Of a DNA stretch of 64,000 nucleotides, positions 19,343 to 48,092 are shown one piece after another (the first letter of the stretch is position 1; every line of letters starts with the position of its first letter). The position numbers and the translations under genes were made by a program. This stretch comes from Xestospongia muta. Taxonomy: Eukaryota; Porifera; Demospongiae; Haplosclerida; Petrosiidae. The notes beneath the pieces are model-generated. The model worked only from the letters and a program-made list of their open reading frames with translations, did no database searches and had not been told where the DNA came from. The DNA is taken from the NCBI GenBank assembly GCA_963693285.1, contig OY848917.1, forward strand, positions 8,370,192 to 8,434,191, written 5' to 3'.

Positions 19343-19442
19343 GGTAAATAAATTGATCTGTTGTTTTTGTTATGATAATATTATACCATTATATTCAGTA
19401 GGAAAACAGTAGTCTTGACATCAATAGCCTGGGTCACCAGCC

Positions 19443-20764
19443 AACTACTGGAAAAACTCCAATATTGTACCTATTCCCAAATCGAAAACCTCTTCTTCAC
19501 CTTCAGACTATCACCCAATCTCTCTACTTTCCCTCCCAAGTAAGATCTTGGAACATCACATATTTAACTATCTGTATGAATTTTGTTCTGCTCACAATAT
19601 CCTCTCTAATTGTCAGTTTGGTTTCTGACCAGAATTCTCAACTAAAACAGCTCTATTATCTATTGTCAATTCTTGGTTTTCTTCACTGAATCGCAAAAAT
19701 GCAGTCTGTGTAGTTTTCTTTGATCTCATAAAAGCATTCGACTCTGTCCCTCACTTGACTCCTTATCTTTGCTCGACCTTCTTCCTCTTCTTTTGTCTTG
19801 GCTCCATAGCTACCTGCAAGGCCATACTCAACAAGTAATCATAAATGCTTCTCTATCTTCTAAATCTGAAGTCTCCTCTGGTGTGCCCCAAGGTTCCATT
19901 CTTGGGCCTCTCTTATTCATCATCTATATAAATGACATTGCTAAACTGTTTGTCCTCTCTTCACCCACCCTCACTCTTTATGCTGATGACATTCTTCTCT
20001 CACAAGAAATTTCTTCTTCAACCTCGATGTCCACTGTTCAGTCCAACATCAACCTTATTTCATCATGGATTACCTCTCATCATCTTATCATCAACTCCAA
20101 AAAAAACAATACATGATTGTCTCTCGTAAGTCTCCCTCTTTTCTAACCTCCCTCCCTCCTCTTTTCTTAGATGGTTCTCAACTTGAACAAGTCAAATCCT
20201 TTAAATATCTTGGTTTTATTATCACCACTAATTTATCGTGCTCTCCTCACATCCAATCAGTCCACTTTAAAACTCGTCAAACCATTGGAACCATCTACTG
20301 TAATTTCTATAAACATGCTTCTCCTTATACTCTTCTCACTTTGTATCGCTCTCTTGTCATTCCCTATTTTTCTTACTGCTCTTTTGTTTGGGACCCACCT
20401 GTATCTTCCACTAATGCTGAAATTCTTGAGAAAACCCAACACTTTGCTCTAAAAATGTGTTCTGATAAATGGGGACAATGATTACTCATCTCTCCTCTCA
20501 ACTTTTAACCTTCCGACCCTCTTAACTCGTCGCTCTATTTCCAAATTATGTTTTCTCTATAAAATCACTAACAACCTCCTCTACTTTCCTTCCGATATTT
20601 TCATTCACAAACCTTTGCCAAGTTATGCTTCTCATCACTTTGATCCTCTTACCTTTACCATTCCTTTTTCTCGCTCATCTGCTTCACAAAACTCATTTGT
20701 CCCTTCTGTTCTCTCTCTGTGGGATTCACTTCCTTATTATGTAAATCATCTTAAACATTATTAA
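19443..20764 (+). mobile_element. Non-LTR retrotransposon reverse transcriptase, 5'-truncated and broken
   Basis: The RT blocks appear in order: NIVPIPK, SDYHPISLLSLPSK, NCQFGF, FFDLIKAFDSVPH, SSGVPQGSILGPLLF, the catalytic LYADDI, INSKK, and KYLG. The C-terminal tail WDSLP is near the end. This is the order of CR1/jockey/L2-type elements. The frame is broken by TGA at 19626-19628, a shift near 19760, another in the A-run at 20098-20107, and one near 20475. The YADD site itself is intact. There is no endonuclease upstream, so the copy is 5' truncated, as is usual for dead-on-arrival insertions. Confidence 0.85.
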
Positions 20765-26507: not shown

Positions 26508-26511
26508 AAAC

Positions 26512-26550
26512 ATGGCTACAGGAATGACTAAGAAGAACAAAAAGTGGACT
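26512..26550 (+). CDS. ROCO-Death gene, first coding exon
   Basis: An acceptor-like polypyrimidine tract ending TTTAG (26507) precedes AAAC and an ATG at 26512. The 13 codons read MATGMTKKNKKWT and stop exactly at a consensus donor, GTAAGT (26551). The exon therefore ends in phase 0. It is basic and has no signal peptide. The next exons that continue the frame are the optional 3-nt microexons at 28.9-34.9 kb and the exon at 35108. Omitting all microexons, the five constitutive exons total 2400 nt, exactly 799 codons plus a stop. That is independent support for this start and these junctions. Confidence 0.6.
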
Positions 26551-28904: not shown

Positions 28905-31900
28905 ATAGTCTCTTTTTACCTTTATCTCTTAACATTTGATGTTACTACCTGACATATGGATTTATTATATTGTAGGAGGTAAATAACTATTAACTAATAA
29001 AATATGATTAATATCATGGTATTTTTTTAGTCCTTTTGTTTCCTTCTTTATATTTGAACTTACAACCTGACATACAGATGTGTTATACAATAGCACATAA
29101 TTGTGATCTATTGCAGTATAATAAGTAACTATTAACTAATGAAATATGATTATTTTGAAAGTTTGTTTAGACCTTTTGTTTCCTTCTCTTCCCTTATATT
29201 TCATGTTAGTACCTGGCCTATTGATATATTATTATATAATTGCCAATAAGTCTGATCTATGGTAGTATAATAAGTAAACTATTAACTAATGAAATATGTT
29301 TTTCATCATTATTATATTTGGGTGGTTCTTGGTGTAACTTGACTATGATGACATCATAATTAAATGACACATAGTGATGTCATCATAGGACAAGTTGTTA
29401 CATCATCAGTCAAGTTACACCAAGAACCACCCTTTATATTTAATGATATTACCCAATCTTTTGGTATATTATATAATAGTGGGTAAGTATGATCTATCTT
29501 AGTATAATAAGTAACTATTAACTAATGAATATGGCTATTGTCATAGTTTGTTTATCCTTTTCATTTCCTTCTCTATATTTGATGTTACTAACTGACACAT
29601 GGATATATTATTATATAATAGTGGGTAAGTATGATCTATTGTAATATAATAAGTAACTGTTAATTAATGAAATATGATTATTGTCATAGTTTGTTTATCC
29701 CTTTTGTTTCCTTCTCTACCTTTATATTTAATGTTACTACCTGATATATGGATCTATTATATAATAGCTGGTAAGTTTGATCTATTGTAGTATAATAAGT
29801 TACTATTAATTATTGAAATATGGTTATTGTCATAGTTTGTTTATCATTTTTGTTTCCTTCTCTACCTTTATATTTGATGTTACTACCTGACATATGGATG
29901 TATTATATAATAGCCAGTAAGTCTGATCTATTGTAGTATAATAAGTAACTATTAACTAATGAATATGGCTATTGTCATAGTTTGTTTATCCTTTTCGTTT
30001 CCTTCTCTATATTTGATGTTACTAACTGACACATGGATATATTATTATATAATAGTGGGTAAGTATGATCTATTGTAGTATAATAAGTAACTTTTAATTA
30101 ATGAAATATGATTATTGTCATAGTTTGTTTATCCCTTTTGTTTCCTTCTCTACCTTTATATTTAATGTTACTACCTGATATATGGATCTATTATATAATA
30201 GCGGGTAAGTTTGATCTATTGTAGTATAATAAGTAACTATTATTATTGAAATACGGTTACTGTCATAGTTTGTTTAATCCTTTTGTTTCCTTCTCTACCT
30301 TTATATTTAATGTTACTACCTGATATATGGATCTATTATATAATAGGAGGTAAGTTTGATCTATTGTAGTATAATAAGTAACTATTAATCAATGAAATAT
30401 GGTTATTGTCATAGTTTTTTGTTTATCCCTTTTGTTTCCTTCTCTACCTTTATATTTGATGTTACTACCTGATATATGGATATATTATATAATAGTATGT
30501 AAGTCTGATCTATTGTAATATAATAAGTAACTATTAATTATTGAAATATAGTTATTGTCATAGTTTGTTTATCCCTTTTGTTTCCTTCTCTACCTTTATA
30601 TTTGATGTTACTACCTGACATTTGGATATACTATATAATAGACTGTAAGTCTGATCTATTGTAGTATAATAAGTAACTATTAATTATTGAAATATAGTTA
30701 TTGTCATAGTTGTTTATCCCTTTTGTTTCCTTCTCTACCTTTATATTTGATGTTACTACCTGACATATGGATGTATTATATAATAGCCGGTAAGTCTGAT
30801 CTATTGTAATATAATAAGTAACTATTAATTAATGAAATATAGTTATTGTCATAGTTTGTTTAATCCTTTTGTTTCCTTCTCTACCTTTATATTTGATGTT
30901 ACTACCTGACATTTGGATATACTATATAATAGACTGTAAGTCTGATCTATTGTAGTATAATAAGTAACTATTAATTATTGAAATATAGTTATTGTCATAG
31001 TTGTTTATCCCTTTTGTTTCCTTCTCTACCTTTATATTTGATGTTACTACCTGACATATGGATGTATTATATAATAGCCGGTAAGTCTGATCTATTGTAA
31101 TATAATAAGTAACTATTAATTAATGAAATATAGTTATTGTCATAGTTTGTTTAATCCTTTTGTTTCCTTCTCTACCTTTATATTTGATGTTACTACCTGA
31201 CATTTGGATATACTATATAATAGACTGTAAGTCTGATCTATTGTAGTATAATAAGTAACTATTAATTATTGAAATATAGTTATTGTCATAGTTGTTTATC
31301 CCTTTTGTTTCCTTCTCTACCTTTATATTTGATGTTACTACCTGACATATGGATGTATTATATAATAGCCAGTAAGTCTGATCTATTGTAGTATAATAAG
31401 TAACTATTAACTAATGAATATGGCTATTGTCATAGTTTGTTTATCCTTTTCGTTTCCTTCTCTATATTTGATGTTACTAACTGACACATGGATATATTAT
31501 TATATAATAGTGGGTAAGTATGATCTATTGTAGTATAATAAGTAACTTTTAATTAATGAAATATGATTATTGTCATAGTTTGTTTATCCCTTTTGTTTCC
31601 TTCTCTACCTTTATATTTAATGTTACTACCTGATATATGGATCTATTATATAATAGCGGGTAAGTTTGATCTATTGTAGTATAATAAGTAACTATTATTA
31701 TTGAAATACGGTTACTGTCATAGTTTGTTTAATCCTTTTGTTTCCTTCTCTACCTTTATATTTAATGTTACTACCTGATATATGGATATATTATATAATA
31801 GTATGTAAGTCTGATCTATTGTAATATAATAAGTAACTATTAATTATTGAAATATAGTTATTGTCATAGTTTGTTTATCCCTTTTGTTTCCTTCTCTACC

Positions 31901-34900
31901 TTTATATTTGATGTTACTACCTGACATATTGATGTATTATATAATAGGAGGTAAGTCTGATCTATTGTAATATAATAAGTAACTATTAATTATTGAAATA
32001 TGATTATTGTCATAGTTTGTTTATCCCTTTTGTTTCCTTCTCTACCTTTATATTTGATGTTACTACCTGACATATGGATGTATTATATAATAGCTGGTAA
32101 GTCTGATCTATTGTAATATAATAAGTAACTATTAATTAATGAAATATAGTTATTGTCATAGTTTGTTTAATCCTTTTGTTTCCTTCTCTACCTTTATATT
32201 TGATGTTACTACCTGACATTTGGATATACTATATAATAGACTGTAAGTCTGATCTATTGTAGTATAATAAGTAACTATTAATTATTGAAATATAGTTATT
32301 GTCATAGTTGTTTATCCCTTTTGTTTCCTTCTCTACCTTTATATTTGATGTTACTACCTGATATATGGATATATTATATAATAGTATGTAAGTCTGATCT
32401 ACTGTAATATAATAAGTAACTATTAATTATTGAAATATAGTTATTGTCATAGTTTGTTTAATCCTTTTGTTTCCTTCTCTACCTTTATATTTAATGTTAC
32501 TACCTGACATTTGGATATACTATATAATAGAATGTAAGTCTGATCTATTGTAGTATAATAAGTAACTTTTAATTAATGAAATATGATTATTGTCATAGTT
32601 TGTTTATCCCTTTTGTTTCCTTCTCTACCTTTATATTTAATGTTACTACCTGATATATGGATCTATTATATAATAGCGGGTAAGTTTGATCTATTGTAGT
32701 ATAATAAGTAACTATTATTATTGAAATACGGTTACTGTCATAGTTTGTTTAATCCTTTTGTTTCCTTCTCTACCTTTATATTTGATGTTACTACCTGACA
32801 TATGGATGTATTATATAATAGCCGGTAAGTCTGATCTATTGTAATATAATAAGTAACTATTAATTATTGAAATATGATTATTGTCATAGTTTGTTTAATC
32901 CTTTTGTTTCCTTCTCTACCTTTATATTTGATGTTTCTACTTGACATTTGGATGTATTATATAATAGCACGTAAGTCTGATCTATTGTAATATAATAAGT
33001 AACTATTATTATTGAAATATGGTTATTGTCATAGTTTGTTTAATCCTTTTGTTTCCTTCTCTACCTTTATATTTGATCTTACTACCTGATATATCAATGT
33101 ATTATATAATAGCCGGTAAGTTTGATCTATTGTAGTATAATAAGTAACTATTAATTATTAAAATATAGATATTGTAATAGTTTGTTTATCCCTTTTGTTT
33201 CCTTCTCTACCTTTATATTTGATGTTACTACCTGACATTTGGATATACTATATAATAGAATGTAAGTCTGATCTATTGTAGTATAATAAGTAACTTTTAA
33301 TTAATGAAATATGATTATTGTCATAGTTTGTTTATCCCTTTTGTTTCCTTCTCTACCTTTATATTTAATGTTACTACCTGATATATGGATCTATTATATA
33401 ATAGCGGGTAAGTTTGATCTATTGTAGTATAATAAGTAACTATTATTATTGAAATACGGTTACTGTCATAGTTTGTTTAATCCTTTTGTTTCCTTCTCTA
33501 CCTTTATATTTAATGTTACTACCTGACATATGGACGTATTCTATAATAGGTGGTAAGTCTGATCTATTGTAATATAATAAGTAACTATTAATTATTGAAA
33601 TATGATTATTGTCATAGTTTGTTTATCCCTTTTGTTTCCTTCTCTACCTTTATATTTGATGTTACTACCTGATATATGGATATATTATATAATAGGATGT
33701 AAGTCTGATCTATTGTAATATAATAAGTAACTATTAATTATTAAAATATAGATATTGTAATAGTTTGTTTATCCCTTTTGTTTCCTTCTCTACCTTTATA
33801 TTTGATGTTACTACCTGACATTTGGATATACTATATAATAGAATGTAAGTCTGATCTATTGTAGTATAATAAGTAACTTTTAATTAATGAAATATGATTA
33901 TTGTCATAGTTTGTTTATCCCTTTTGTTTCCTTCTCTACCTTTATATTTAATGTTACTACCTGATATATGGATCTATTATATAATAGCGGGTAAGTTTGA
34001 TCTATTGTAGTATAATAAGTAACTATTATTATTGAAATACGGTTACTGTCATAGTTTGTTTAATCCTTTTGTTTCCTTCTCTACCTTTATATTTGATGTT
34101 ACTACCTGACATATGGATGTATTATATAATAGCCGGTAAGTCTGATCTATTGTAATATAATAAGTAACTATTAATTATTGAAATATGATTATTGTCATAG
34201 TTTGTTTAATCCTTTTGTTTCCTTCTCTACCTTTATATTTGATGTTTCTACTTGACATTTGGATGTATTATATAATAGCACGTAAGTCTGATCTATTGTA
34301 ATATAATAAGTAACTATTATTATTGAAATATGGTTATTGTCATAGTTTGTTTAATCCTTTTGTTTCCTTCTCTACCTTTATATTTGATCTTACTACCTGA
34401 TATATCAATGTATTATATAATAGCCGGTAAGTTTGATCTATTGTAGTATAATAAGTTACTATTAATTAATGAAATATAGCTATTGTCATAGTTTGTTTAT
34501 CCTTTTCATTTCCTTCTCTATATTTGATGTTACTAACTGACACATGGATATATTATTATATAATAGTGGGTAAGTATGATCTATTGTAATATAATAAGTA
34601 ACTTTTAATTAATGAAATATGATTATTGTCATAGTTTGTTTATCCCTTTTGTTTCCTTCTCTACCTTTATATTTGATGTTACTACCTGACATATGGATAT
34701 ATTATATAATAGGATGTAAGTCTGATCTATTATAGTATAATATGTAACTATTAATTATTGAAATATGGTTATTGTCATAGTTTGTTTATCCTTTTTGTTT
34801 CCTTCTCTACCTTTATATTTGATGTTACTACCTGACATATGTATGTATTATATAATAGGAGGTAAGTCTGATCTATTGTAGTATAATAAGTAACTATTAA

Positions 34901-34930
34901 TTAATGAAATATGGTTATTGTTATAGAGTA
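28905..34930 (+). repeat. Tandem array of candidate single-codon microexons
   Basis: About 41 direct units, period 142-149 (mostly 145-146). Unit order: donor GTAAGT, 'gatctattgta', 'aataagtaacta', 'ttattgtcatag', pyrimidine-rich 'ccttttgtttccttctctac', branch-like 'ttactacctgac', then 'tattatataatag' and three variable bases before the next GTAAGT. Triplet starts in the 38 intact units: 29480 tgg, 29622 tgg, 29768 ctg, 29914 cca, 30056 tgg, 30202 cgg, 30347 gag, 30496 tat, 30642 act, 30787 ccg, 30933 act, 31078 ccg, 31224 act, 31369 cca, 31511 tgg, 31657 cgg, 31802 tat, 31948 gag, 32094 ctg, 32240 act, 32385 tat, 32531 aat, 32677 cgg, 32822 ccg, 32968 cac, 33113 ccg, 33259 aat, 33405 cgg, 33550 gtg, 33696 gat, 33842 aat, 33988 cgg, 34133 ccg, 34279 cac, 34424 ccg, 34567 tgg, 34713 gat, 34859 gag. 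Three damaged units precede them (28976 gag, 29094 cac, 29243 cca). TAATAG and GTAAGT are present in all 38. Phase 0 gives one codon each (W, L, P, R, E, Y, T, N, H, V, D) and no stop. That the triplets are spliced in is inference. Confidence 0.7.
29320..29432. mobile_element. 113-bp MITE inside the array
   Basis: Terminal inverted repeats of 25 bases match exactly, starting GGGTGGTTCTTGGTG and ending with its reverse complement. The flanks 'attatattt' (29311-29319) and 'tttatattt' (29433-29441) form a 9-base target duplication with one mismatch, which would fit a Mutator-like element. It sits in the spacer before the first intact unit (29480). It has no ORF, so it is non-autonomous. Confidence 0.85.
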
Positions 34931-35107: not shown

Positions 35108-35123
35108 AGAATGGAATTAAGAG
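35108..35123 (+). CDS. ROCO-Death gene, 16-nt exon
   Basis: 'tcttgtctag' (acceptor, ends 35107) precedes 16 bases coding RMELR plus the first base of the next codon, then GTCAGT. It enters in phase 0, compatible with the first exon and with any number of 3-nt microexons. It leaves in phase 1, matching the 36085 exon, whose first two bases AG complete a Glu codon. The MELRESYKRALADG junction reads naturally into the Roc domain. The donor GTCAGT is only moderate. Confidence 0.6.
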
Positions 35124-36084
35124 GTCAGTTCTAATTGTCTCAGATAATTTTCATGTATTATTGACAAGAACAAGAACAAAAAAACAATTATCCTCTGTCC
35201 ATTATGAAAGTAACTAATTAAGATCAGACGGTTGTAATAATAACTGCATATTTTCACAACACCTGTAATGTAACTATTTAGATTAAAGTATGTCAGAGGA
35301 GAATATACAATAAAATAAAATTGTGAATCAAGCTATTACACATTTGTCAATATTACATGTGCATATAGTAAACTCTGATTATTAAGAATTATCACTGTTA
35401 CTGAATATCACAAACAATTTGGCTGTATGGAAAAAATAAGACTTGTTTGTTTGAGTGGGTTAAACCTTTTTCAGATAAACTTTTAACAATAACCTTGATA
35501 GAAGTTGATAAACAGTTGGTTCAGTTAAACTTGTCAATTAATTTTTAGATAGATTATAACCACAAAAGTCATAGCATAAAATGTACTTTTTTCACTGGTA
35601 ATGTTTACATTTAGCTTTCATGTAAACAACACATTACTTCCAAAATGTCAACTTGATTGTTTGTATTTGATGTTTTACCTAGTCTTTTAGAATTCGCACT
35701 ATGACATTACAGCTTAACCTTAGGGTATTGTTAAGGACTTAGTGATAAATATCTTTTTTTATTTGACTATATTCTTAATCAGAAATTTAATTTTAAGACT
35801 GTGCTGCACTTCTATTTCTTACTGAGAAAAGTTTTTATCTTGCCATTACTGCCTACTACAAAGAGCATGCTACTTTTGGTTTCAAATCATGTGTGAATAT
35901 ATGAATATGTCCATTGTTGTCATTTTATTCTATAGCTGTTAAGTTTGCTTTCTACATTTATTTCTTCCCCATAGACATAGTTCCCAACTCTCTTATTTTG
36001 ACAATTCTAATATTTTGCTATATAAAATGATTATATTCCAAAGTTTAGATATTTTATATGATTCTAATATTTTTGAAAATACAG
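35124..36084. other. Intron of the ROCO-Death gene
   Basis: AT-rich; no coding content was seen. The - strand reading of this area is closed. Confidence 0.5.
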
Positions 36085-38111
36085 AGTCTTATAAAAGAGC
36101 TCTAGCTGATGGAGAGAGGAATGTACCTTATGCTCGAGTCATGCTTCTCGGTACAGCAGGTGTAGGAAAGACTACCTTTAAGCGATCGCTGATGAAACTA
36201 CCATTTGAGCGTAACACTACCAGCACTGGTCTTTCAGATATATATCGTATTCGCCCATTTGGCCATGAGTGGAAAACTTTAAAGGATGATCAATGGAAAG
36301 TAGCCACATACAAAGATGAGTTGGAGGAAATGGCGCACCTACTGTCATCTATCTACAAAGATAATTTAGGTGCACATAATCCAAGTAATGCAATTAAAGC
36401 ATCATTGCTTTATGATACTACTAGTGCACAGTTGTCACTTGATGTTGCTGAGGATCAAATTGAAGAAATGGAAGAAAGGAAAGTAAACAAGATTCTTAGT
36501 GAAGCTATTGACTTAGTTAATTCTCAAACAACCACCAATACCGATGCTCAACCATTTTTACATATTTGGGACTGTGGTGGTCAACCTGCATTCCTTGAAC
36601 TTCTACCAGCATTTCTCACTCCTCGTACCTTGTTTGTTCTAATGTTTGATGCATCAAGAGGGCTTAATGAAGGATGGAGGTCTGTGCTGAATAAAGATGG
36701 TCATGAGAAATTCCTTGAAGAAGTTAACATGACCACTTTAGAGCTTATGCTTAGTTGGATGGCAAATATTCATGGTCATCTTGCTAAAGGCAATCAAGGT
36801 AAAAGCTTTCCTGGCTATCCTCGAATGCTTTGCATTGGCACTCGTGGAGATTGCCTGGAATCTGAAGAGCAAAGGAGTGCAGTTAAATCTGAATTGGAGT
36901 CTCATATAAAAGGAAAAGCATTCAGAGAGCTCATCGAAGATGTCTTCATAGTTGATAACACAACATCTGGCTTTTTGATGTTTGAAGACCGTAATCTTGC
37001 AGACATACGAAGAATCATTAGTACATTTACTTATGAAAAGCTCATTGTCAAGACACCTGTAAGCTGGGTACTCTTTCGGAAGGTAATTCAAGCCTTGGAA
37101 GAAAATGTTGTGAGTCTTGAAGAAGCTCATATCATTGCACGTGCTTGCAAGATTTCACCTGATGATGTTCCTAAAGTCCTTCTCTTTTATCATGATTTAG
37201 GGGCTTTACTATTCTATCCTCATATTGAAGGTCTTAAAAACAAAGTTGTTGTTAGCCCCAAATATTTTGTTGATGTTATTGGTAAATTGTTTACCATAGA
37301 TGATTGCAGTCATAACTTCTGTTTACTTGACATTTGGGAAAAGTTTCAAAAGAAAGGAATTTTAATTGAGTCTTTGTATAAATTTGTTTGGGAAGAAAGT
37401 AAAGATTTCCATCCTGATGCTCTGATAGATCTCTTAGTAGATTTTCGTATAGCTGCTGAAGTTCATACCAGTATACATCATGATCCTAGTATCAAGCAGT
37501 ACTTCGTACCTGCAATCCTGAAATCATTTCCTGGAGATCCTTACAAGGTTTTAACTGGTAGTTGTATGCACGCGTCACCTTTACACATCTCATTTTCAAC
37601 TGGTTTCGTACCACCAGGTTTTTTTACACGTTTTGTCACTACTATCGCCAGTAATCGTACTTATAAGCTTTGTTTTGATCATGGTGTTTATAGAAACCAT
37701 GTGACTTTTCGCTGTGATGATTCATTTGTTGCTTTCACAGACCTTCAAAATGCAATACTTGTTGATGTAGCGAGCTATGATCGAACTAATTTCATTATGC
37801 CATTTGTTAAATTCTGTCAAGACCTCAAAGTGCTTATTGAGAAAAGTGCAAAAGCAGTTGAAATAACACTTAGTAAGTCACAGACAAGATTTACTGAAGA
37901 AATGTCTTATCATGTCACTTTTGAAATTAAATATGTTTGTCAATCAGATGAGTGTGCTCATCAACTAGATCATCAACATTATATTGAGACTTCTACAAGG
38001 CAAACTAGTAGTAACTTTGTCTATTGTGAGAAAAGCGAAAAGAAATTTCCATACCGTCCATTATCCTCATTGGAAGTATACTGGTTCAAGGATGATGTGA
38101 CAAATCAGAAG
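36085..38111 (+). CDS. ROCO-Death gene, Roc GTPase and COR exon
   Basis: A 2027-nt exon between an ATACAG acceptor and an AAG|GTATAC donor, open throughout. Numbering the protein without microexons, the Roc GTPase shows the P-loop GTAGVGKT at 41-48, the switch-II motif DCGGQP at 181-186 and TRGD (the N/TKxD position) at 271-274. The COR domain follows from about 320 (TPVSWVLFRKVIQALEE) to about 560, and a Cys-rich tail to 694. Roc and COR always occur together in ROCO proteins; COR mediates dimerisation and couples nucleotide state to output. No LRR, ankyrin or kinase domain is present, so the N-terminal stub and the tail are the only extra parts. The unspliced frame extends upstream to 36015, but the codons before 36085 look intronic. 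Confidence 0.85.
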
Positions 38112-38572
38112 GTATACTGTAGATTTCACTATTGTTTCATTTGTATGACCATTTTGTACTTAGAAAATACAGCATATCCCTCATGACAACACAAGTCAGA
38201 AGTGCTCTCAGTGAGTATTTCAAATAGTTTTAGCTAATGTTATTGTCATTTCAGAGTAATTAACAGTGAAGATCACATTGCTAGTAATGAAGATACACAT
38301 GAAAACATAGTTAGTTAAAAATTAATTATTATATAACTTTATAGGCTGTGTTTACAATCCTGACAGTAAATACAATAATTCAATGATCAATTAATACTGT
38401 ACCCTATACCACAAATCTTTGAACCCAACTGTATTAGTTTCACATTAAAGTATATGGCTTTTTATTTAGATTTGTAGGTTTCGATAGGAATTGTATGCAT
38501 AGTGACTGAAAAAAGAAATGATTTGCTACAGATATTTTAACATCATTAATTATAATAATTTTTTTTCAATAG
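38112..38572. other. Intron of the ROCO-Death gene
   Basis: Closed in all frames. It ends in a pyrimidine-rich 'ttttttttcaatag' acceptor at 38572. Confidence 0.5.
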
Positions 38573-38597: not shown

Positions 38598-39478
38598 GTA
38601 AAATATTCTAACAAATAAATCTGATGTGACATATACAGAATCATATATATTTCACATAGCCATAGTTATTGTTATTATGTCTTTTCAATTCTATTCTACA
38701 TTTTTGTATTACATCTAGGTTAACATTATGAACTTTCTAGGCCATGTGATTTGTAAATCAACAGGCTCACATCTTTAATTTTAATGTTAACATAGTGTTT
38801 TCGTCTTGTATTCATTCCATAACTCTTTTAATGACAGTTATCATGTCATGCACCACACATACTATATTTCCTCAAAAAATGCCTCCCATGCCTTCTTATG
38901 TTTATTAAAATTAAAGAAGCCATGAAAGTAACTGCAAAGAATTTTCTTCATTTAAAGTTTTCATTGTTTACTGATAAATAGAATCTTGTCTTACAAAATG
39001 TCATGATGTCTTATATCAAAGTAAACACTGGTCTTGAATAATAGCCTCCCTCAGGTGGATCATAAAAACATAGTATTCACAGCTGCTATTTAATGAAGTA
39101 TAGTACAATGAAGGTGTCACTATGATATAGTTTTAGATATTGTACATACCTTTGATGTCTCATAATGAGGTGACATAATCGTGCCTATTATTTGAAAGTG
39201 TCTATAATTGTATATAATAATTATTTTTGCATTTACCTTAATTTTCCATCTTATAACCTTGTTACATAATAACTATTAATAAAATAGTTCAAATTACTAT
39301 ATACTATTCATATATACCTTTAGTACCATATCCATAATTATGTTACTAGACCTTTCTATCAGTGGACCCAGATAGTAAGGGCATTTTGTAAGGACTTTAT
39401 AGAAGTGGTTAATTTTTGAAAATAATATATAAGATTCAGTTTAATCAGTCATTAGTAATGGACTATTGTTTTTTCTAG
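38598..39478. other. Intron of the ROCO-Death gene
   Basis: No coding content was seen; it ends 'gttttttctag'. Confidence 0.5.
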
Positions 39479-39771
39479 ATATTTTAAAGGAAAGTCCCAA
39501 TCACTATGAAGCACTTTCAAAGTTGGCAGATATTAGTGCTAAATGGGAAGAGATAGGTTTGGCCCTCAAGGTTCCACCCAATAAGTTAGATGGCCTACAA
39601 AGTGATCACAGCAGTGTAACAAGCAAGCTTTCAAAAGTAATAACTCTGTGGATGGAATCTAAGTCATTACCTGTTTCCTGGGAGACATTGATTTCTGCCA
39701 TTGAGGGGCCTATTGTTAACAACAAACAGAAGGCTATGGAGATACGTGATTACCTCTATAGTCAACATTAA
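39479..39771 (+). CDS. ROCO-Death gene, Death-domain terminal exon
   Basis: From ILKESPNHYEALSKLA to the TAA at 39769-39771. The pattern KWEEIGLALKVPPNKLD ... LWMESKSLPVSWETLISAI is a Death domain (helices 2 to 5), closing the protein with IRDYLYSQH. Roc-COR plus a C-terminal Death domain is the architecture of DAPK1-like and MALT/PIDD-like signalling hubs, where the Death domain recruits partners to control cell death or inflammation. That functional reading comes from family knowledge, not from this sequence. Confidence 0.8.
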
Positions 39772-45100: not shown

Positions 45101-46540
45101 GATTATCTATACATAGATTATTTTGAATACTTTAATATTACAACCAAATACTCTAATTTACTGTCACACCAACTACTGATATACAGAGCTGTCCTAATAA
45201 TCAAGAATGTTATTCTCTTTTCTACTACAGTAATGTAATGTTACCTTCTAACATCACACTGATATTTATGGATGAACAGCATCTGTTACAAGAAAATATT
45301 ACATGTTTTATTTATTGTCTAAATAAGGTACAGCTACCTTTAAAAGGTTAGAGGGTAGTTGGTTTTTATTTTTCAATAATGAAGTCAACTGTTATCATCA
45401 GATGTACCTATGTTAATAGCACTGGTATAAGTATTTACAACACAAAGATTGTGCATATTAAAGAATGACGATTATTGATTATAATGAGGAAAGATCATTA
45501 TGATCAAGACTAGCCTTGTACCCAGGCTTTATTAGAATGCCTGGGTATGAGGCTAGATCAAGATTGCTTCATACAATTTGTCACTATAATATAACAGTGA
45601 TATTGGATTAATCATTAGTTCAACATCAAATGTTATTGTTACAGACAATTCTTTCAGTCTAAATAAACATCATGCAATGATAACTACTAACTTTTCTAAC
45701 CATCACTCATCCTAGTATTTCATTCAGCAATGATACAAATAAAACTAGTTGCACTGTTTCTTAATCCCTACCTTTTAAACTAAAAGCTACTTTTGTTAAA
45801 AATTCATTCATTAAAGCTAACAATCACTACTGTTGATTTTAAAGTATTTAAAATAAGACTTTCAAAGGCAAAAACCTCATTTATGTCATAAATTTCTACA
45901 TGAACATAGTTTTTAATTTAAGAGCCTTCTCTTTATGGAGTTATCAATGAAAACAGAAAGAATGAAAGAGTGCCACGTCATCCCTATAAAGACAATAGTA
46001 CTCATTATACATCTTAATACAAATATATTGCTGTTTAATAAAAATACTCTAACAACGCTTAAATTATAAATCAATCCCATTTGTTAAATAAACAATGTTT
46101 TGTTCACTACAACTGTTGTTGTGTGTACTATAGGTATGTAGTAAATAGAATACATCTGTTATTTCTATTACTTTAATGATTACATGTATACATTTGCTTT
46201 TAGTTTGTAAACACTCTGTCAATTAAGTCTAGTTAAATGTCTGGTCACCCATTAACTTTGTGTGCATAAATTCTATATGGGCAAACTATTTCAGATATTG
46301 TCAAGTAAATACTTACATTAATTTTGTAGAAGCTATTTAATTAGGACAATATTTGTATCTAGTTAGTATATATAAATACAATTAATTGTCTTACTAATCT
46401 CAAGATTATGTAGCACAATATACTCCATAGATCACTAGTTAGATAAAATAGTATAGATATATAACAACATGATTTTATTTAAAATAACAATATTGCTTTT
46501 CTATTTTAATATTCCAATTAAAATATTATTGTTGAATCAT
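42200..46540. other. Intergenic, no gene seen
   Basis: AT-rich DNA with scattered short ORFs on both strands, none with domain character or splice-site support. The only structured item is the small palindromic insertion at 45510-45555. Confidence 0.5.
45510..45555. mobile_element. 46-bp palindromic insertion with 8-bp target duplication
   Basis: TAGCCTTGTACCCAGGC (45511-45527) faces GCCTGGGTATGAGGCTA (45539-45555), 15 of 17 bases pairing. The insert is flanked by GATCAAGA on both sides (45502-45509 and 45556-45563). The 8-base duplication suggests a hAT-type mini-element or solo end pair. Confidence 0.6.
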
Positions 46541-46551
46541 TAATTGTTAGG

Positions 46552-48092
46552 ATGGAGACACTTTGTCTAACTTGTTCTAAGCAAAGGATCACTTCTAAAT
46601 CAGTGATACGTCTCATTCTCTGGCATGCTATGATGTTTGTCCATATCAATTCAATGCAATGTATTGGTGCAACTGTCTTCAACAACAGCAATATTAGTCG
46701 CTACACTGTTTTTGGTATAGGAGTGTGTCTGGTATACCTTTCATTTCCACTGTTTGGTCTACTTGCTGATGTAATTAAAGACAGGTAGATATAAAACTAT
46801 CATTACTTGTGTACACTTCTCGTTTTTGTCATGGATAATTGGTGGCTTGGCAATTATTGTTAAGACATATTTGCCAGAGAATGAAAGTTTTTTCTTGATA
46901 GCCTTTGGTATAGGTTTTATACTGGAATTGATTGGTATATGTTGCTTTTTATCCAATATAGTTCAATTCAGTCTTGATCAAGTAATAGGTGCATCAGCTG
47001 ATGAACTAAGTGCTATTATCTATTGTTTTACTAAGTGCATACCTTTATCTCATGTCGTTTTAGAATTGGACAGTGTATGATCAAACGGTTTTTCATTGCA
47101 CTAGTAGTGACATTTATAGCATCAGGTATGTCTGTATCTGTAGTATTAATAACTGGTTATCTCTTTAAACATTGGCTTGATACTACTTCAAACATTGTCA
47201 ATCCAGTCAAACACATTGGTCAAGTACTAAATTTTGCCAGAAAAAAAAATATCCAAAAAATCGTAGTGCTTTTACCTACTCGGAGAAAGACTATCCTTCA
47301 CGTCTAGACTTAGGTAAAGGAAAATATGGTGGGCCCTTCTCAGTAGAGCAGGTAGATGTTAAAACAGTTTTAAGGTTAATTCCTTTGTTAATTTCTACAG
47401 TGGGCCTTTTTTGTGCAAGAGAATTTACAGTGAATTGTTTTTTAATCGTAAACAAAACATCACAGTTTATTTTTGCTTTATCTTGAATGATTCATCATAC
47501 TTCTCAGTAGCTGTAGTGCTCATTCTTCATTTATCAGATGTTGATATATCCATGTTTCTATAAATTCATTCCTAGCATGCTCAAGAGAATTGGTCTAGGA
47601 CTTACTTTTGCTTTATTGACAACATTATACTATGTTATCATGTTGGCTTGTAAAGACAGTTTATATTTAAACACCACTTCATACAAAGCAGTTGTCGTTC
47701 CCCAAATTTTGTACGGGATTGCTTATGCATTTATTATTCCAACATCATTAGAGTTCACAATAGCTCACTGTCCACATAAGATGAGAGGATTTTTAGTTGG
47801 AATATGATATGCAGCAATTGGATTTGGTGGTTTTATTAATGTAGGTGGAAAGTATCTGTTTAGTTGCCAAGGAGAAACACACTGTCAGAGTCTTTACTAT
47901 TATGTATTAAAGAGTGTCATTATTCTCATAATACTTATTATGTTCCTGATACTAACCAGACGTTATAAGTTTCGAGTCAGAGATAATGAAATCAACGTAC
48001 ATTTAATAGCTGAGGAACATTATGAAAGATATTTGAATCAAGAAATTCAATACAGAAGAGAAATGGGACTATCACTTGAATCAACAGACTAA
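46552..48092 (+). pseudogene. POT/SLC15-like peptide transporter, frameshifted
   Basis: Segments in different frames line up as one multi-pass transporter: METLCLTCSKQRITSK and ...LFGLLADV (46552-46788), SFLSWIIGGLAI ... DQVIGASADELSAIIY (46815-47030), IASGMSVSVVLITGY with NPVKHIGQVLNFARKK (47070-47250), DYPSRLDLGKGKYGGPF (47290-47345), and MLKRIGLGLTFALLT ... CPHKMRGFLVGI (47538-47807). The DQ..ASA.ELS and YGGPF motifs are characteristic of a POT/SLC15-like MFS family expanded in sponges, as I recall it. Frames change near 46780, 47070 and 47255. TGA at 47806-47808 replaces an expected Trp, after which the frame stays open to 48092. It appears to be single-exon and dead. Confidence 0.65.

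Follow-up and report, generated by a model that had tools for sequence, protein, structure and literature searches.

Tandem arrays of predicted single-codon exons in ROCO and ankyrin genes of the sponge Xestospongia muta

A tandem array of units with three variable bases upstream of a ROCO exon

The stretch of DNA analysed here (the window, 64,000 nt of contig OY848917.1 of the sponge Xestospongia muta, to which window positions below refer) carries an exon coding for the Roc and COR-A domains of a ROCO protein and, 5' of it, a 146-bp tandem repeat of 37.8 copies with 89% matches at 29431–34926 (Tandem Repeats Finder, TRF). A preliminary description of the locus, made from the sequence alone, had proposed 38 consecutive units of about 146 bp, in each of which an invariant TAATAG and GTAAGT enclose three variable bases, to be read as a single-codon microexon. 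The TRF period agrees with this unit length, and an exact motif scan gave the same count, with three bases between TAATAG and GTAAGT in 38/38 units, whose starts run from 29474 to 34853 at intervals of 142–149 bp; all other spacings from 0 to 15 were tested in the array and returned no site. Our recount of the triplets likewise returned 12 different ones, with all four bases seen at each position, and a branch-like CTGAC reported upstream of the AG was recovered as CTGAC or CTGAT, beginning 27 or 30 bases before the AG end in 35 of the 38 units. The contrast between freely varying triplets and near-identical spacers is borne out by heterozygosity values of 0.70, 0.72 and 0.57 at the three triplet positions versus a spacer mean of 0.104 (39 units, relaxed motif). 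The triplets are richer in GC than the spacers, as had been claimed, but the figures given (56% and 30%) were not reproduced, the measured values being 60.5% and 24.0%. Translated in phase 0, the ordered triplets read WWLPWREYTPTPTPWRYELTYNRPHPNRVDNRPHPWDE.

The limits first given for the array, 28905–34930, enclose the 38 exact units but extend too far to the left, as the part 28905–29430 consists of three degenerate units, which stand outside the count of 38, and an inverted repeat. The latter resembles by eye a miniature inverted-repeat transposable element (29320–29432, arms of ~24 bases, GGGTGGTTCTTGGTGTAACTTGAC and its complement) and lies at the left end of the array, among its degenerate units.

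Genome-wide occurrence and behaviour of the triplets

The preliminary description had dealt with a single array, which is one among many. In the genome of the window (158,027,690 bases, 28 contigs) exact TAATAG-NNN-GTAAGT sites number 3270 + 4216 = 7486, against 30 + 43 = 73 for a reversed-pattern control, and chance is therefore excluded. The three-base length is strict genome-wide, because spacings of 4–12 bases, pooled, give 770 sites versus 874 in the reversed control, with no excess. Places with GCN triplets, 46 in the full list and mostly array units, lie on contigs C1 (38), C2 (7) and C5 (1), and arrays were additionally read on C8 and C12. As in microexons generally, each unit presents a short segment with acceptor and donor signals on its two sides.

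Sets of units were built by an anchor downstream of the motif, with at least 7 of the 12 motif letters required (anchors below this were set aside, 2 in family A, 3 in family B and 8 in B2), which gave 216 family A units from seven stretches, 40 family B units and 83 B2 units. In family A the acceptor A was changed in a single unit and the G in none, the donor G in 8 and the T in 2, whilst at the three triplet positions 142, 148 and 116 units carried a letter other than the commonest. All 12 motif letters were intact in 177/216, and the variants of TAATAG (TAAAAG, TTTTAG, CAATAG, TAACAG, TTACAG and others) retained the AG in all but one unit. Family B behaved in the same manner, with the AG changed in 2 and 0 units, the GT in 0 and 0, and the triplet bases in 23, 27 and 24. 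Across eleven arrays, scored with the relaxed motif, mean spacer heterozygosity was 0.05–0.21 versus 0.56–0.74 at triplet positions 1 and 2; position 3 ranged from 0.00 (a C2 array, all G) to 0.63, a pattern that fits a third codon position combined with a donor preference for a final G.

Some individual arrays have a character of their own. The third base is nearly always G in L044 (C2:14318000–14327999) and L046 (C1:34078000–34087999), with heterozygosity of 0.00 and 0.06, and their first two triplet bases are highly variable. In L042 (C1:17666000–17675999) the ordered triplets spell a markedly hydrophobic peptide with an abundance of L, W, V and G.

A third family (C) was found at more distant ROCO genes. 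TTTYAG-NNN-GTAAGT shows no overall excess genome-wide (139 sites versus 114 in the control), so a general excess of three-base exons with this acceptor was rejected; among the places listed, many adjoin more distant ROCO genes on C5. Family C arrays, with units of ~141–161 bp, occur in two stretches 5' of ROCO genes (49% and 49% identity); their acceptor is mostly ATTTAG, and exactly three bases separate it from the donor, which is GTAAGT or GTAGGT. The strict form gives 22 and 28 sites, and other spacings from 0 to 15 none except one at 13, whilst the filtered lists contain 0 stops in 28 and 0 in 41 units. Family A and C spacers are hardly alike (z 1.7 and 2.3), those of A and B, and of B and C, somewhat (z 2.4 to 4.9). 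That one AG-NNN-GT design recurs with unlike spacers in two gene families is hard to explain without function.

Genome-wide, the triplets behave as phase-0 codons. TGA is absent (0), versus 134 sites for CGA+GGA+AGA (reversed control of the latter 13), and TAA occurs 4 times versus 553 for AAA+CAA+GAA (reversed control again 13), with all four TAA sites isolated, outside arrays and without a second site nearby. TAG occurs 9 times, 7 of them in arrays, where its comparators reach 345 for AAG+CAG (control 2), 753 for GAG (control 0) and 1988 for TTG+TCG+TGG (control 0). TAA and TAG together thus amount to 13, close to the 10 of the reversed control; column frequencies in a sample of 516 units, which includes loci fetched for TAG, would scale to ~60 TAA, 325 TAG and 47 TGA. 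Six of the seven array TAGs sit in decay-rich arrays (L017 twice, L019, L020, L021 and L023, each with 4–10 exact units of 14–21 anchors), and the seventh lies in a family A array with intact motifs upstream of a C12 ROCO copy whose ROCO exon carries three in-frame stops, a position that fits a coding role.

The same avoidance is found when units are treated as joined in order. In 388 consecutive units, which exclude the loci fetched for TAG, phase 0 contains 0 stops where shuffled columns lead to an expectation of 12.4 (never fewer than 4 in 2000 shuffles), whilst phases 1 and 2 contain 12 and 22; with those loci included, the 455 units have 2, 14 and 22 stops in phases 0, 1 and 2. Antisense stop triplets occur in the 516 units as TCA (16), TTA (4) and CTA (0). 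Readings in phase 1 or 2, or on the opposite strand, were rejected since stops occur there. In-frame coding, which is not demanded of every microexon, is here indicated by the phase-0 stop avoidance together with the phase-0 exons that flank arrays in ankyrin genes.

Host genes and neighbouring features

The features of the window are collected in Table 1. Profile matches to Roc (1.1e-9) and COR-A (2.8e-11) lie in the stretch 35943–38183, and the ROCO exon has 15 close paralogs (87–93% identity) on C1 at 8.19–9.05 Mb and on C12. In the window and in all 15 paralogs, motif units lie on the same strand, at most 16 kb 5' of the ROCO exon; in two paralogs compared, the array flanks are 93.7–95.5% identical whilst the arrays themselves differ. 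The closest named protein relatives are from the demosponge Amphimedon queenslandica (44%). Three further ROCO proteins (P0005–P0007), with 80–82% identity, are perhaps from a related sponge.

Table 1 Array and candidate exons in the window
Feature	Position	Strand	Basis and remarks
Candidate exon 1	26508..26550	+	Predicted, two paralogs; ATG at 26512, reads MATGMTKKNKKWT, ends in phase 0 before GTAAGT
Three degenerate array units	28970..29251	+	By eye, last two also in anchor search; without TAATAG or GTAAGT, cores near 28970, 29088 and 29237
Array of 38 predicted single-codon exon units, TAATAG-NNN-GTAAGT	29474..34867	+	TRF and exact motif scan
Candidate exon 2, 14 bases	35110..35123	+	Aligned paralog loci; AATGGAATTAAGAG; a 16-base form would begin at 35108
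Main ROCO exon (Roc and COR-A)	35975..38186	+	Profile matches and paralog alignment; acceptor CATAG at 35970–35974, open reading frame to 38183, 3' end candidate
Open reading frame with weak Death-domain match	39445..39771	+	E 0.00073, 20.1 bits, under the cut-off of 22.6

Both paralogs examined retain candidate exon 1, apart from a single M to L change, and an alignment of 8 paralog loci shows conservation of exon 2. In the predicted gene model, exon 1, the triplets and the 14-base exon 2 form one continuous reading frame with the ROCO exon. The second exon had been placed at 35108–35123, a 16-base form that we rejected because the ROCO exon then falls out of frame; the 14-base form is preferred as the only one to keep exon 1 and the ROCO exon in a common frame (both frame checks by eye). 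The Death-like reading frame is probably a later exon of the ROCO gene.

The family B arrays checked have ankyrin genes as their hosts. At the three loci fetched on both flanks (C1 7.15, 11.45 and 15.25 Mb), the nearest recognised exon on each side was in every case (3/3) an ankyrin repeat of 99 bases on the strand of the array, in phase 0-0, and all six flanking exons scored above the Pfam Ank cut-off. If both flanks are taken as one gene, as we assume here, a family B array would insert residues between two ankyrin repeats. The proposal that the units arose from a collapsed ankyrin exon was rejected, as the arms of the family B unit matched the introns around ankyrin exons not clearly better than shuffles did (12 comparisons, best p 0.04). 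At L053, a family C locus, the ROCO frame begins immediately at an acceptor, in phase 0 and 187 bases past the last triplet, with no other exon seen between array and ROCO frame, where a later acceptor is possible; the stretch covered at L054 ends before the ROCO exon.

Three other regions of the window may be mentioned. The open reading frame 45157–45351 resembles by eye one that lies 3' of the L009 array and may belong to an extracellular receptor family. Several exon-like frames at 46522–48092 suggest a multi-pass membrane protein, transporter-like by eye. Reading-frame pieces at 19402–20764 have the look, by eye, of a decayed non-LTR reverse transcriptase, with a YADD-like stretch that we take to be the reverse transcriptase motif.

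Predicted splicing of the arrays, alternative readings and significance

The strict length, the conserved AG and GT, the stop avoidance, the phase-0 ankyrin flanks and the third family support the single-codon exon reading of the preliminary description, and we consider it highly probable that the units are tandem phase-0 single-codon exons, serially spliced and coding a hypervariable peptide, in ROCO and ankyrin genes. Several points weigh against this. With TAA or TGA as the triplet, the acceptor G would become part of a complete donor (GTAAGT, GTGAGT), so that the demands of splicing could account for their absence; TAG, which forms no such donor, is the cleaner test, though it is an acceptor-like triplet, and CAG, likewise acceptor-like, is retained (31 among the 100 places listed of the 345 AAG+CAG). 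The copying of units within arrays makes the counts interdependent, and other triplets are scarce too (GCN in 46 of 7486, third base C in 9 of 516). TAG units are missing from three other close paralogs whose ROCO exon contains stops, the absence of stops in family C is weak on its own (shuffles reach 0 in 32% and 10%), and some arrays are decayed, the G of the AG being gone in 14/83 B2 units. Host genes were checked for few arrays, and a host sought for the L008 and L009 arrays could not be assigned. Two features of the ROCO genes, weighed below, add to these points.

The exons might instead be used alternatively, one or a few per mRNA, by a Dscam-like choice or by random skipping, which would place the variation between transcripts and not between genes. 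Tandem near-identical exon units do resemble known alternative exon arrays, and any subset preserves the frame, as all units have three bases. We regard this as possible but rather unlikely, however, as TAG and TGA are almost absent, which suggests that each unit counts in most transcripts, and as the full TAATAG and GTAAGT persist in so large a part of family A (177/216). Stop avoidance this strong points to most units being present in most mRNAs, although we infer both the inclusion of units and their number per mRNA from genomic sequence.

It is unlikely that single-codon exons were diversified by targeted mutation or triplet replacement, beyond selection on random changes. Such a process would suit pairs in the 8.235-Mb array at a spacer distance of 0.015–0.03, which number 37 without triplet differences, 41 with three and 26 and 15 in the intermediate classes, and also the C12 array, where 6/13 pairs with a spacer distance <0.005 differ at two triplet bases. 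Recent duplicates mostly retain their triplets, however (22/24 window pairs with a spacer distance <0.005 are identical), short-stretch gene conversion yields an equal pattern, and stop avoidance shows selection acting. Gene conversion, selection or targeted change could each suffice for those pairs of arrays other than the window's that have little spacer change and two or three triplet differences.

In the ROCO genes, the array could lie in a 5' leader or upstream open reading frame, with translation starting inside the main exon (MIIFQS...), since the AG of the 14-base exon 2, the only form in frame, is lost in 1/8 paralog loci (L038), and the residues directly before MIIFQS vary among paralogs (by eye). 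This too is improbable, and markedly so, as the ankyrin hosts place their arrays within the coding region and the family C array at L053 is followed by the ROCO frame in phase 0 with no intervening exon seen. A satellite or mobile-element family, whose triplets would be non-coding spacers or coupling sequences and whose splice-like motifs would be part of the element, is extremely improbable, for although thousands of copies, repeated unit blocks and degenerate edges are normal for satellites, stops are avoided here in one frame and on one strand, contrary to an absence of coding constraint, the flanking exons are in phase 0, and three families with different spacers share the AG-NNN-GT design.

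On the single-codon exon reading, each ~146-bp unit would comprise the end of one intron, a one-codon exon and the beginning of the next intron, and the introns of ~143 bases, a length that suits intron definition, would be removed one after another. Serial removal is proposed because a three-base exon cannot carry both splice complexes simultaneously; it would resemble recursive splicing, with three bases left per step. U1 base-pairs with the last three exon positions (−3 to −1) and the first six of the intron (+1 to +6). The exon bases read by U1 would here be the variable codon itself, so that the constant, full-consensus GTAAGT would carry recognition and free the codon. Most or all units would probably be joined, and the resulting hypervariable peptide, tens of residues long, would lie close to the N-terminus of ROCO proteins and between two ankyrin repeats in the others; the skipping of any unit would stay in frame because every unit is one codon. 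Arrays may grow and shuffle by unequal exchange, which would keep the introns alike, whilst selection for different residues (or targeted mutation) would maintain the codon differences; the likely purpose would be recognition variability in cell-death or immune signalling proteins. More tentatively, and with doubt outweighing confidence, the genome-wide one-codon exon system, through serial splicing and unit skipping, may constitute a recognition repertoire towards self/non-self or microbes in ROCO/Death and ankyrin proteins; we know of no comparable immune diversification in which splicing builds such a repertoire.

Dscam-type exons code parts of Ig domains, with one chosen per cluster. The arrays resemble them in that tandem duplicated exons would diversify an immune-related protein, and differ in that the sponge exon is one codon and would be included jointly with others in frame. 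Schistosoma micro-exon genes (MEG) are described as 35 genes with 10–20 exons of 3–81 bp, introns of 100 to almost 5000 bp and secreted products, with alternative splicing discussed as a source of protein variation (PMC10526429). The likeness is that one gene contains a whole series of very short exons, some as small as 3 bp, which are here predicted. The sponge exons differ from those described in being all exactly three bases, in tandem units of ~146 bp, with hypervariable codons, in thousands, and in ROCO and ankyrin genes; candidate exon 1 looks, by eye only, unlike the N-terminal signal peptide of a secreted product, the hosts code Roc/COR and ankyrin domains, and we do not class them as MEG. 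Isolated 3-nt microexons are spliced in mouse Ncam and Drosophila TnT, likewise of three bases but presented there as single exons and not as an array of differing codons (PMC8042270). In recursive splicing, acceptor and donor adjoin and ratchet points juxtapose AG and GT (PMC8605326), whereas in the sponge units three bases intervene. The single-nucleotide exon of Arabidopsis APC11 is one exon only, whereas the sponge arrays would leave one codon per step, tens of times consecutively. Neither MEG, isolated 3-nt microexons nor recursive splicing, as presented in the sources cited, amounts to a tandem array of one-codon exons. Our searches of the open-licence PMC literature, which did not extend to bioRxiv, listed no description of such arrays.

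If spliced as predicted, the arrays would widen the view of how small an exon, and how many in succession, the spliceosome can handle, and would allow models of intron definition and of recursive splicing to be tested in a natural setting. Ordinary gene prediction would then miss tens of residues in each protein, and the arrays would point to a new way of generating recognition diversity in an animal that branched off early.

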